Source: Mesoterricola sediminis (lineage in GTDB: Bacteria; Acidobacteriota; Holophagae; Holophagales; Holophagaceae). From it: 64,000 nt of DNA. Location of the stretch: positions 4,199,001 to 4,263,000 of the forward strand of contig NZ_AP027081.1 of the NCBI RefSeq assembly GCF_030295425.1, given 5' to 3'. The notes beneath the pieces were generated by a model, which saw only the letters and a program-made list of their open reading frames with translations, did not search any database and was not told the DNA's origin. The position numbers and the translations under genes are program-made. Positions 4,730 through 53,172 of this stretch are shown here, piece after piece (within the stretch, counting starts at the first letter, position 1; each line of letters opens with the position of its first letter).

Positions 4730-6022
4730 TCATTCGTAGCGCAGCGCGTCGATGGGATCCTGGGCGGCGGCCTTCATCGCGGGCCAGAGGCCGAAGCCCA
4801 GGCCGATGGCCGTGCTGATGCCGAAGCCCAGCACCACGCTCCAGAGCGGGGCGGCCGCGGGGAAGTCGAAGGCGTACCGCACGAGGAAGGCGATGCCGAA
4901 GCCGGCGGCGATGCCCACGGCCCCGCCCGTGCAGGTGAGGGCCACCGCCTCCACCAGGAACTGGGCGGCGATGTCCTTGCGGGTCGCCCCGAGGGCCTTG
5001 CGGACGCCGATCTCCCGGGTGCGTTCGGTGACGCTGACGAGCATGATGTTCATGATGCCGACCCCGCCGACGAGGAGGGCGATGGCCGCGATGAGGACCA
5101 TGGCCATCGTCACGCCGCCGGTGACCTGCTGGAAGGTCTGGAGGCCCTCCTCGGAGGTCCGGATCGCGAAGTCGTTGGGCTGGTGGGCCTTGAGTCCGCG
5201 GTGGGCGCGGAGGATGGCCACCTCCTGGTCCGTCATCTCATGCACCTGCTCCGGGTCCCGGGGGACGGTGGCGATGTGGAGGGTGTCGCCGCGCCCGTTC
5301 TTGATCTGGGGGAACATCTCGTCGAAGACCGTCAGCGGGATGAGCATGAGGTTGTCGGCGCTGCCGCCCATCTGGGAGCCCTTCTTCTCGAGCACGCCGA
5401 TCACCCGCAGCGCCACGCCGCCGACCAGCACCTCCTGGCCGATGGGATCGCGCCCGGGGAAGAGGGGCTTGGCGACGTCCCAGCCGATCACGCACACGTG
5501 GGCCCCGTGGGTGAGGTCCGTCTCGGAGATGAACCGGCCGTCCTCCAGGGTGCTGTTGTTCGCCGTGAGGTAGTCGGGGACCACGCCGCCGATGGTGGGG
5601 CCGTTGGCCTCGGTGCCCTGGCGGTTCTTCACCGCCCCGGTGCCCGATGCCTGGTAGTACCGCTCGGGGGAGACCGCCCCCGCCAGGGTCGCCAGGCGCT
5701 TGAGGGCCGCGGCGTCCTCCAGCGTCAGGTCGCGCCGGCGCCGCTGGTCCTCGGGGATGAGCCCCGGAGGCCCCCCGAAGCGCGGCTCGTACTTCTGGAA
5801 CTGGACCAGGGTCGTCCCGAAGGCCGAGAAGGCCCCGGTGACGGCCTCGTTGAACCCCGCCACGAAGCTCACCATGGCGATGACCGTGGCCACCCCCGCG
5901 ACGATGCCCAGCAGGGTCAGGAAGCTGCGCAGCTTCTGCGAGACGATGGCCCGGAAGGCGAAGAGAACGTTCTCCCGGCCCAGGGCGTGGAGGAAGGGGC
6001 TGTTTCGGATGGCCTTGAACAT
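4730..6022 (-). CDS. MacB-like ABC transporter permease
   Basis: A 430-residue integral membrane protein: one N-terminal transmembrane helix after QKLRSFLTLLGIVAGVATVI (~residues 28-50), a long periplasmic MacB_PCD domain, then three C-terminal helices in the FtsX fold. The hallmark GVGIMNIMLVSVTERTREIG and RKALGATRKDI are present, and it ends IDALRYE. The family couples ATP hydrolysis to transport across the periplasm together with a MacA-type fusion protein. No nucleotide-binding domain is fused, and no ATPase gene is nearby, so the ATPase must be supplied from elsewhere. It is the last gene of a three-gene operon, 8 bp after the sister permease. Confidence 0.9.
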   Translation of the reverse strand: MFKAIRNSPFLHALGRENVLFAFRAIVSQKLRSFLTLLGIVAGVATVIAMVSFVAGFNEAVTGAFSAFGTTLVQFQKYEPRFGGPPGLIPEDQRRRRDLTLEDAAALKRLATLAGAVSPERYYQASGTGAVKNRQGTEANGPTIGGVVPDYLTANNSTLEDGRFISETDLTHGAHVCVIGWDVAKPLFPGRDPIGQEVLVGGVALRVIGVLEKKGSQMGGSADNLMLIPLTVFDEMFPQIKNGRGDTLHIATVPRDPEQVHEMTDQEVAILRAHRGLKAHQPNDFAIRTSEEGLQTFQQVTGGVTMAMVLIAAIALLVGGVGIMNIMLVSVTERTREIGVRKALGATRKDIAAQFLVEAVALTCTGGAVGIAAGFGIAFLVRYAFDFPAAAPLWSVVLGFGISTAIGLGFGLWPAMKAAAQDPIDALRYE

Positions 6023-6030
6023 GCCGTCCC

Positions 6031-7256
<1,226 letters not shown>

Positions 7257-50111: not shown

Positions 50112-51203
50112 CTAGCGGTGCACGTTCTGGTTGGGGTTGCGCTCCTCCATCTCGGCCCACAGGCGCTGGAGGCTCTGGAGGCGCTCGGGGTAGTCGAGGC
50201 CGAGGGCCTCGTCCTCCGGGTCCAGGGCCATGGGATCCTCGATCCACTCGGCCGGGAACTCGGGGAAGACCGTGGGCAGCAGCGTCCGGGGGAAGCCGCG
50301 CACGCTGAGGGTCCGGATGCCCGGGGTGTCGATGAGGGTGGCGTCCGGTCCCGCCGGCAGCCAGCGGGCGCTCGTCGTCGTCTGGCGCCCGGTGCCGTAG
50401 CGGCTCACGTCGCCGGTGCGGAGGTTGTGGTCGGGCGCGACGGCGTTCACCAGGGAACTCTTCCCCACGCCGCTGTGGCCCACCAGGACCACCGACCGCC
50501 CCCGCAGCAGGTCCCGGAAGGCGTCCAGGCCCTGTCCCGTCTTCACGCTGGTCTCCAGGATGGGGAGCCCCTGGGCCCGCAGGGGGTCCAGTTCCGGAAG
50601 GGTGTCCCGGACCGAGGCCCGGTCGCGCTTCGTGACGATCACCCGGAAGCCCATGCCCGCGGCCAGGGCCAGGGTCTGGGCGCGCTCCAGGAGGCCGGGG
50701 CGCAGGGGCGGATCCACCACGGCCGCGCAGGCCCACAGCTCGTCGGCGTTGGCGCAGATGAGCTGCCAGGGCTCCCGGTCGTCGATGCCCCCCCGCTTCA
50801 GGAGGGTCCGCCGGGGCAGGACCGCGACCACCTGGGCCTGGGGCAGGCCGGGGTCGGCCGCCTCCACCGGCACGGGGGAGAACCGGACCCGGTCGCCCAC
50901 CACGAGCTTCACCCCCTTGAGCTTGCCCGCGAGGGTGGCCCGCAGGGGGACCCGCCCCTCCAGCTCCAGGTCCACGATCTGGCTGTGGCGGCACACGAGG
51001 GTCGCCTCCTGCAGGTGGGCCCAGGGGGACGCGTCCGGCAGGAGCAGCATGGATTCGGAATCGTGGACTTCCGCCTCGGTGGCGAGCTTCTCCGCCGTCT
51101 GCTGGCGGCGCTTGCTCTGGGCCCGGCCCTCCCGGGCGTAGGCGTCCGGGGCGTCCAGCTCGTGGGCGTCCCGGCTCTGCCCGAGGCGGAACTTCCGGAC
51201 CAT
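50112..51203 (-). CDS. rsgA: Ribosome small-subunit GTPase RsgA, lacking the zinc finger
   Basis: Circularly permuted GTPase that checks 30S assembly; 363 residues. An N-terminal Lys/Arg-rich extension and OB-fold (~60-130) precede the G domain in permuted order: VTKRD (G4), GHSGVGKSSLVNAV (G1), and DTPGIRTLSVRG (G3). Normally a zinc motif (CxxxxCxHxxEPGC) follows; here the sequence VFPEFPAEWIEDPMALDPED has no Cys or His ligands at all. The rest is a short helix. The gene overlaps the efp stop (TGATG), so it is coupled to it. Confidence 0.9.
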   Translation of the reverse strand: MVRKFRLGQSRDAHELDAPDAYAREGRAQSKRRQQTAEKLATEAEVHDSESMLLLPDASPWAHLQEATLVCRHSQIVDLELEGRVPLRATLAGKLKGVKLVVGDRVRFSPVPVEAADPGLPQAQVVAVLPRRTLLKRGGIDDREPWQLICANADELWACAAVVDPPLRPGLLERAQTLALAAGMGFRVIVTKRDRASVRDTLPELDPLRAQGLPILETSVKTGQGLDAFRDLLRGRSVVLVGHSGVGKSSLVNAVAPDHNLRTGDVSRYGTGRQTTTSARWLPAGPDATLIDTPGIRTLSVRGFPRTLLPTVFPEFPAEWIEDPMALDPEDEALGLDYPERLQSLQRLWAEMEERNPNQNVHR

Positions 51204-51778
51204 CAGGCCCGCCCCGCGAACTCCCGCGTCTCGGTGGACACCTTCACCTTCTCGCCCTCCTTGATGAAGAGCGGCACGCGGATCTCGATGCCGGTCTCGA
51301 GCTTGGCGGGCTTGGTGACGTTGCCGCTGGCCGTGTCGCCGCGGGCGCCGGGCTCGGTGTAGGTGACCTCGAGCTCCACGTGGGTGGGGAGCTGGAGCCC
51401 GATGGGGTTGCCGTTGAACTTCTGGATCTGGATGATGGCCCCCTCCACCAGGAAGTCGAGGGCGTCGCCCACCATCTCGCCGTCGAGGGTGAGGGTCTCG
51501 TAGCTCTCCTGGTCCATGAAGTGGGACCCGTCGCCGTCCGAGTAGAGGTAGGAGGCCTGGACCATGACGAGATCCGGCTCCTTGAACTTGTCCCCGGCCT
51601 TGAAGGTCTTGTCGAAGACGGCGCGGGTGATCAGGTTGCGCATCTTGAGCCGGACCAGGGTCTGGCCGCCCCGGGCGGTGGGGGTGCTGACCTCCGCGTC
51701 GAGGCAGTGGAAGGGGGTGTCTTCGAATTCGAAGAACATCTTTCGCTTGATGGAGATCGCTTCGATAAGTGCGGCCAT
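51203..51778 (-). CDS. efp: Elongation factor P family protein with EfpL-like loop
   Basis: Rescues ribosomes stalled on polyproline. It has 191 residues in three domains (KOW-like, OB, C-terminal). The C-terminal signature VTYTEPGARGDTASGNVTKP with KLETGIEIRVPLF is standard EF-P. The loop that normally carries the modified Lys34 (KPGKGQ in E. coli EF-P) reads STPTARGGQT here, close to the PTARG loop of the EF-P paralogue YeiP/EfpL, with Arg at the tip. No epmA/epmB or earP is in the window. ATG 51778 has GAGGAA 5 nt upstream. Confidence 0.9.
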   Translation of the reverse strand: MAALIEAISIKRKMFFEFEDTPFHCLDAEVSTPTARGGQTLVRLKMRNLITRAVFDKTFKAGDKFKEPDLVMVQASYLYSDGDGSHFMDQESYETLTLDGEMVGDALDFLVEGAIIQIQKFNGNPIGLQLPTHVELEVTYTEPGARGDTASGNVTKPAKLETGIEIRVPLFIKEGEKVKVSTETREFAGRA

Positions 51779-51957: not shown

Positions 51958-53172
51958 ATGGCGGAAACTCCCAGGACCATCGGCAGGTATGCCGTGAAGC
52001 GCGCCATCGGCCAAGGCGCCATGGGGGTCGTCTACCTGGCGGAGGACCCCCTCCTGAAGCGGCGGCTGGCCATCAAGGTGGTCCGCGCGACCGGCGAGGA
52101 GCGGGACCAGGCCCTGGAGCGGTTCAAGCGGGAGGCCGAGATCTCGGCCCAGCTGAACCACCCCAACATCGTGACGGTCTACGACGTGGGCGAGGAGCCC
52201 AGCATCGGCCCTTTCATCGCCATGGAGTACGTGGAGGGCAACAGCCTGGGCCGGTTCATCCGGGACGCCAGCCTGGACCTGGAGACCCGCTTCGGCATCC
52301 TCATCCAGACCATGCGCGCCCTGCGCGCGGCGCACCGGAACGCCATCGTCCACCGGGACGTCAAGCCCGACAACATCCTCGTCGCCGAGGACGGCCGGGT
52401 GAAGCTGATGGACTTCGGCATCGCCAAGACCATGGCCCCCCGGCTCACCAACGCCGGCGAGTTCCTGGGCTCCCCCGCCTACAGCGCCCCCGAGCTCCTC
52501 CGCGGCGGCGACCCCACCCCCGCCTCGGACCGCTACGCCTTCGCCGTCACGGCCTTCGAGCTCCTCACCGGCCAGCTGCCCCACCCCGGCGGCAACGTGG
52601 CGGCGGTCATCACCCACATCCTCACCGAACCCCCCGTCTTCCCCGCCGGCATGTCCGGGGACATCGCCAAGGTCTTCCGCCAGGCCCTGGCCCAGGATCC
52701 CGACGAGCGCCAGGCCACCCTGATGGACTTCCTCCTCCCCCTGGTGGACGCCCATCCCCTGGATCCCGTGGCCCGCCAGCGCGTGGACGAGCTCTTCCGC
52801 CACGACGACCACGCCGGGGACATCGTGCCGCTCCGGCGCCTGCGGCCCGGCGTCCCGACCCCCGAGCCCCCCGCCGGGGCCAGTTCCTCGGGCTGGTCCG
52901 GCAGCCACACCCTCCCCGGGGCCCGGGCGACCCCCGCGCGTCCCGTCCCTTCCTACACCCAGCCGAGCCCCGTGAAGATCGAGCTGGAGACCGCCTCGCC
53001 GACCGCCACCCGCCCCCCGGGCTGGGAGGAGGCCCGCAAGCGCCGGAAGCCCCAGTCCAGCCTTACCGCCTGGACCTTGGTCAAGTGGTTCATCGCCATC
53101 CTGGTGGCGGGGCAGCTCTGCTGGTGGGCCTGGAGCTTCCTCCAGGCGAACATCAACGCCGCGCCCCGGTAG
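51958..53172 (+). CDS. Hanks-type serine/threonine protein kinase
   Basis: A 404-residue kinase. Kinase domain (~9-265): GQGAMGVVYLAED (P-loop), AIKVVRA (Lys), YVEGNSLGRFI, HRDVKPDNILV (catalytic loop), DFGIAK and SPAYSAPE. A Pro/Ser/Thr-rich linker leads to one C-terminal transmembrane helix (LVKWFIAILVAGQLCWWAWS, ~373-393), with almost nothing outside; no PASTA repeats. The catalytic residues are all present. No partner phosphatase gene is near. Start ATG 51958 is preceded by TATGAT at 51932-51937. Confidence 0.92.
   Translation: MAETPRTIGRYAVKRAIGQGAMGVVYLAEDPLLKRRLAIKVVRATGEERDQALERFKREAEISAQLNHPNIVTVYDVGEEPSIGPFIAMEYVEGNSLGRFIRDASLDLETRFGILIQTMRALRAAHRNAIVHRDVKPDNILVAEDGRVKLMDFGIAKTMAPRLTNAGEFLGSPAYSAPELLRGGDPTPASDRYAFAVTAFELLTGQLPHPGGNVAAVITHILTEPPVFPAGMSGDIAKVFRQALAQDPDERQATLMDFLLPLVDAHPLDPVARQRVDELFRHDDHAGDIVPLRRLRPGVPTPEPPAGASSSGWSGSHTLPGARATPARPVPSYTQPSPVKIELETASPTATRPPGWEEARKRRKPQSSLTAWTLVKWFIAILVAGQLCWWAWSFLQANINAAPR

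Follow-up and report, generated by a model that had tools for sequence, protein, structure and literature searches.

An EfpL-type EF-P paralog with an arginine-tipped loop in Mesoterricola sediminis, whose second EF-P has an asparagine tip

The EfpL subfamily of EF-P relieves ribosomes arrested at proline-rich XP(P)X sequences without being modified and, as defined by Sieber et al. (2024, PMC11611912), is recognized by a loop of more than seven residues with an arginine at its tip and an invariant proline three residues before this arginine. According to the mass spectrometry described in that paper, R33 of Escherichia coli EfpL is unmodified; its survey reports that EfpL mostly co-occurs with a beta-lysylated EF-P and lists Acidobacteria among the carriers. 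The same source counts 474 of the 528 EfpLs of its EfpL branch as named accordingly in RefSeq. Asparagine at the EF-P tip accompanies a proline two residues upstream, as reported in PMC6544042, and some of the bacteria concerned also possess a deoxyhypusine-synthase-like (DHS-like) protein.

Here we analysed a window (the whole stretch of 64,000 nucleotides of contig NZ_AP027081.1) of Mesoterricola sediminis in which one gene encodes an EF-P paralog, P0002, with a long arginine-tipped loop. We read P0002 as the EfpL of this Holophagaceae bacterium, a P/E-site factor for stalled prolyl-tRNA beside an Asn-tip second EF-P, with a probability of about 0.82. The Acidobacteriota EfpL branch to which it belongs is probably, we infer, among those left unnamed in RefSeq. 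The observation made in the first-pass annotation was correct and its explanation is mostly ordinary: an EfpL branch already reported for Acidobacteria, here with an Asn-tip EF-P as partner.

Table 1. Features of the efpL-type locus, in window coordinates
Feature	Position	Strand	Description
efpL-type gene	51203..51778	(-)	EF-P paralog P0002, 191 aa; KOW, OB-II and OB-III domains
beta3-Omega-beta4 loop	51659..51685	(-)	residues 32-40, TPTARGGQT, 9 residues
Arg36 codon (tip residue)	51671..51673	(-)	Pro33 three residues upstream
Gly147-Asp148-Thr149	51332..51340	(-)	counterpart of E. coli EF-P G144-D145-T146, d3 loop I
rsgA	50112..51203	(-)	363 aa, directly downstream of the efpL-type gene; product taken to be RsgA/YjeQ, small-subunit GTPase, from its sequence
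serine/threonine protein kinase-like gene	51958-53172	+	404 aa, divergent start just upstream of the efpL-type gene; product presumed kinase-like from its sequence

Gene, loop and family assignment

The reading frame of P0002 coincides exactly with the interval in Table 1, from an ATG start to a TGA stop; the opposite strand is also open there, but its composition is different and low-complexity. All three domains expected of an EfpL were matched in Pfam (EFP_N, EFP and Elong-fact-P_C). The loop, in the context E-V-S-T-P-T-A-R-G-G-Q-T-L-V-R, agrees with the published definition of EfpL in its length of more than seven residues, its arginine tip and its proline three residues upstream; it departs from the canonical EF-P pattern of a seven-residue loop with lysine or an EarP-type arginine at the tip. 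Pro33 and Arg36 are both retained in 94 of the 94 distinct P0002-type proteins gathered, and 86 of these keep the exact string STPTARGGQT, so that the loop is not a product of chance. In the predicted structure, strand 3 ends at residue 31 and strand 4 starts at residue 41, which would leave Arg36 central in a nine-residue loop; the model is of low confidence (mean pLDDT 65.3, below 50 in OB-III), and these loop boundaries, of moderate confidence, are the sole use made of it. A Foldseek search with the same low-confidence model ranked EF-P structures first and EfpL 17th, the model being too weak to discriminate. The first-pass description of a loop longer than canonical, EfpL/YeiP-like and tipped by arginine is borne out on the minus strand, where the reading frame itself lies.

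Against the EfpL reading, NCBIfam scores favour EF-P: P0002 reaches 197.1 with TIGR00038 (NCBIfam EF-P; cut-off 185.8) and falls below both EfpL models (NF003392, 155.6 against 216; TIGR02178, 137.6 against 264). In addition, position 183 is Phe, not Tyr, in 94/94 P0002-type proteins. EfpL is accordingly used here in the sense of the published subfamily and does not imply a match to NF003392 or TIGR02178.

With E. coli EfpL/YeiP (PDB 8S8U), as described in PMC11611912, P0002 shares the three EF-P domains, a nine-residue P-T-A-R-G loop with its arginine tip and invariant proline, and the co-occurrence of a second EF-P. The two proteins are 33% identical in alignment, and P0002 differs in having GDT rather than GAS in d3 loop I, Phe rather than Tyr at position 183, an asparagine-tipped partner in a genome without EpmA, where the E. 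coli partner bears a beta-lysylated lysine, and a gene that overlaps rsgA. Canonical EF-P (TIGR00038, e.g. E. coli efp) resembles P0002 in fold, domain order, GDT and passage of the NCBIfam EF-P cut-off, whereas the loop of P0002 is two residues longer, its tip is Arg, not Lys, and its clade is another. EarP-type arginine EF-Ps (Pseudomonas, Shewanella, Ilyobacter) also present arginine at the loop tip, but on a seven-residue SGRN loop without the proline, with earP as an adjoining gene and in a separate clade (support 100/99). The Asn-tip EF-Ps of Acidobacteriota (TPGN) are of the EF-P family as well and differ in their seven-residue loop, asparagine tip and lack of Asp145.

Phylogenetic placement and the d3 loop I motif

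The d3 loop I motif (G144-D145-T146 of E. coli EF-P) contacts the E-site codon, as described in section 9 of PMC11611912. Asp145 and Thr146 occur together in 88 of 94 P0002-type proteins, 11 of 17 other Acidobacteriota long-loop proteins and 21 of 47 Lys-tip (PGK) EF-Ps from the genome sample; among Asn-tip (PGN) EF-Ps, both the pair and Asp145 alone are found in 0/56, and the EfpLs of E. coli, Proteus and Klebsiella read GAS at this site. Because Asp145 is also present in 13 of the 17 other Acidobacteriota long-loop proteins, GDT looks ancestral rather than grafted; on sequence comparison the best reading is that P0002 retains an ancestral trait which E. coli EfpL and the partner EF-P have lost. 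The C-terminal domain, called canonical in the first-pass annotation, is so in keeping GDT, unlike E. coli EfpL, although this would be inheritance and not a hybrid graft. As a separate observation, the tip lysine and Asp145 seem to have been lost together among EF-Ps (Asp145 in 0/56 PGN proteins, e.g. L004:1492-2058, and 21/47 PGK proteins).

Phylogenetic reconstruction relied on a hand-made selection of 88 of the 263 EF-P proteins, from which those shorter than 180 residues (L015, L018 and L128) were omitted. In the full-length tree with the loop masked, P0002 belonged to a group of 14 rows, all of the P0002 type (100/99), joined by three other long-loop Acidobacteriota paralogs (100/100; 100/98 with the OB domains alone). 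Both are contained in a 28-row clade composed exclusively of Acidobacteriota long-loop Arg-tip paralogs (100/95), which holds 28 of the 29 such rows. The three gammaproteobacterial EfpLs and Acidobacteriota row L245 were placed elsewhere on long branches. L245 (genome G099) is itself a long-loop paralog that groups with gammaproteobacterial EfpL and not with the other 28 (100/99), possibly by transfer or as an older branch.

This separation would be expected had the long Arg-tip loop arisen twice, the Acidobacteriota and gammaproteobacterial clades then being convergent look-alikes, an alternative that we consider unlikely. The published EfpL tree was built, according to its methods (PMC11611912), on KOW domain sequences that retained the loop, so that loop similarity may have contributed to the published branch. 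Our own KOW tree with the loop recovered the 32-row long-loop set (96, quick method), and the set was absent once the loop was masked (50 columns); single-domain KOW trees, with 50-65 columns, resolve little. Against two origins, a single clade of all 32 long-loop rows is neither rejected nor shown by the loop-masked full-length tree (p 0.372), in which long branches are involved, and in the OB-only tree a single branch (87/94, moderate) sets off all 32 rows, with E. coli EfpL among them.

A natural EF-P/EfpL hybrid, as proposed in the first-pass annotation, would carry an EfpL loop or KOW domain on a canonical EF-P body, acquired by recombination or convergence. The EF-P-like GDT motif of P0002 in OB-III, its higher NCBIfam score for EF-P than for EfpL and the best loop-masked tree, in which gammaproteobacterial EfpL stands apart from the long-loop proteins of Acidobacteriota, are in line with such an origin; in the OB-only tree, a topology that shuts the P0002 type out of the remaining long-loop rows costs 14 log units and is not rejected (p 0.216). 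However, the KOW domain with its loop and the OB domains each unite all 32 long-loop rows, the same three long-loop Acidobacteriota paralogs are the nearest neighbours of the whole protein and of its OB domains, and the distribution of Asp145 speaks for ancestry. Grouping the OB domains of the P0002 type with all 10 non-Acidobacteriota Lys-type EF-Ps of the set is rejected (p 3.9e-9); their union with five E. coli-type EF-Ps, at a cost of 39 log units, is only marginally disfavoured (p 0.0645). Given the loop-masked clade and the position of the OB domains with EfpL, and with alternatives not firmly rejected, we regard a hybrid as very unlikely. Our reading of these alignments is that P0002 would be an EfpL with no domain swap.

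The partner EF-P and modification enzymes

The genome consists of a single contig of 4,524,604 bases, in which two EF-P family genes were found. P0002 is therefore not the only EF-P, as the first-pass annotation had supposed it might be: a second protein of 188 aa, encoded near position 803,000 (G000:C1) and 31% identical to P0002, has a loop of canonical length with an asparagine tip (H-Q-T-P-G-N-L-P-A-R). Neither paralog has a lysine tip that known enzymes modify. A second, canonical EF-P together with a place for P0002 in the EfpL clade had been named as evidence against a hybrid, and this is largely what we observe, except that the tip of the second EF-P is Asn, not Lys; the clade is that of the long-loop Arg-tip paralogs with the loop masked.

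The nearest titled relatives of P0002 belong to Holophagaceae (94% to 91% identity; Geothrix rubra 87%), in the phylum Acidobacteriota. Among 31 relatives, the window's family accounts for 19 genomes, 18 with an Asn-tip EF-P and 16 with a P0002-type gene, one of the latter truncated before the loop. When a phylum sample of 90 genomes (88 with a match) was combined with the 31 relatives, an intact P0002-type gene was present in 28 genomes. An aligned Asn-tip EF-P accompanies it in 26 of these and a truncated copy reading TPGN in G017, while no second EF-P was found in G005 (83% complete); a Lys-tip EF-P occurred in 0/28. A different long-loop Arg-tip paralog was present in 17 other genomes, with a partner of Lys-tip (8), Asn-tip (7) or Arg-tip (1) type, or none (1). 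Co-occurrence with another EF-P thus holds for P0002, but the usual beta-lysylated type of partner does not, and the Acidobacteriota pairing departs in this respect from the published pattern.

Two further observations concern variation within the phylum. G012 (Holophagaceae, 1.2 Mb, 96% complete) keeps the Asn-tip EF-P, and no P0002-type gene was seen in it; this is a possible natural loss of efpL, which, if true, would make efpL dispensable there. Other Acidobacteriota EF-P tips are unusual, reading HTQGRGYA, VGTARGQA, VKIANRRA, TPGRWKA and TPGRYKS (L183, L215 and L219 of family f7; L227, L228, L222, L231 and L239).

EarP was not found in the genome, nor among the 31 genomes examined (own and relatives). 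The 14 control genomes lacked a full EarP and four named records were added, of which the EarP search detected both earP-annotated ones (2/2) and neither of those with epmB (0/2). That P0002 is an arginine-type EF-P rhamnosylated by EarP, as its tip and the closeness of the published EfpL branch to the EarP-type branch (PMC11611912) might suggest, is most improbable: the search that recovered its positive controls returned no EarP from the genome or its 30 relatives, and the loop of P0002 is two residues longer and contains a proline missing from EarP-type EF-Ps. EpmB likewise gave no match in the genome, in a search whose control passed the cut-off in 1/14 genomes. The best EpmA match, a 509-aa protein with 247.5 bits, remained below the cut-off of 286.9; from its LysS-type layout we take it to be LysS-like, and reject it as an EpmA. 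Across the 31 relatives EpmA exceeded the cut-off in six, which make up all 6/6 of the neighbouring family f3, against 0/19 of the window's family and 0/6 of f2. Since the f3 genomes are those that carry a PGKGQ Lys-tip EF-P (plus a PSARG paralog), EpmA follows the PGKGQ EF-P within the class. YmfI chemistry would not apply either, because both paralogs lack a tip lysine. The first-pass expectation that lysylation enzymes would not act agrees with the lack of EpmB and the LysS-like nature of the EpmA-like match; of the genes it had named for searching, a second efp was found, earP was absent and the epmA candidate is explained as LysS.

The genome also encodes a DHS-like protein (L271, about 5561-6553; match G000:C1:1736626-1737537). 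Matches were obtained in 18/19 genomes of the window's family against 0/12 of two other families of the class, and, in the phylum sample, in 44/45 Asn-tip genomes, 18/35 Lys-tip genomes and 0/8 others, where faint partial hits in G062 and G110 were scored as none. A role as modifier of the Asn-tip EF-P is not supported for this protein, with only three independent contrasts on well-supported branches (p 1). It may be a polyamine enzyme, its nearest NCBIfam model being homospermidine biosynthesis, far below the cut-off.

Gene history and proposed role

The ATG of rsgA overlaps the stop codon of the efpL-type gene (TGATG), which makes an operon with coupled translation likely. At 51 of 80 titled loci of relatives, rsgA is the immediate neighbour, and in L040 and L052 it is a little displaced, or the reading frame picked runs through it. 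No rsgA match was found at 27/80, at least two of which end too early for a decision; the 27 include every one of the 14 loci titled Acidobacteriaceae. P0002-type proteins of the window's family share 65-81% identity with those of family f10 (median 71, 70 pairs), and the EF-Ps of the two families only 40-48% (median 43, 70 pairs), the medians within the window's family being 83 and 79, respectively. A quick tree of 95 rows nests the Acidobacteriaceae copies among those of Holophagaceae (31 rows, 98) and suggests, at quick-tree confidence, that efpL was transferred from Holophagaceae to Terriglobia. With such a transfer in view, the fact that efpL is the better conserved gene does not speak cleanly for a larger role. 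In the open-access literature searched, we found no printed description of the Asn/Arg pairing, the rsgA operon or a cross-class transfer of efpL.

In the mechanism we propose, P0002, like EF-P, would bind a ribosome stalled with a prolyl-tRNA, moving in between its P and E sites, and would work beside the Asn-tip EF-P. The ribosome site, the contact of the loop with the CCA end, the reading of the codon and the lack of modification are all drawn by analogy from E. coli EfpL and EF-P, from which relief of proline stalls by an unmodified factor emerges as the most likely function. Family, loop, paralog, tree placement, the lack of EarP and EpmB matches, the LysS explanation and the rsgA overlap were computed or observed here. 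Tentatively, the two factors may have exchanged roles in Holophagaceae and some Terriglobia, with EfpL as the main proline-stall factor, the Asn-tip EF-P as accessory and polyproline rescue proceeding without any known EF-P modification. This possibility is based on the retention of GDT in efpL, its far greater conservation relative to its partner, and the loss of both a modifiable lysine and Asp145 from the Asn-tip EF-P.

EfpL appears here as a partner also of EF-Ps without a modifiable tip. Annotation by the usual HMM cut-offs masks this EfpL branch as EF-P, and the codon-reading loop of E. coli EfpL is not typical of the subfamily. Members of Holophagaceae, for instance Geothrix, would offer a test case for proline-stall rescue in which no EF-P modification through a known pathway is expected.
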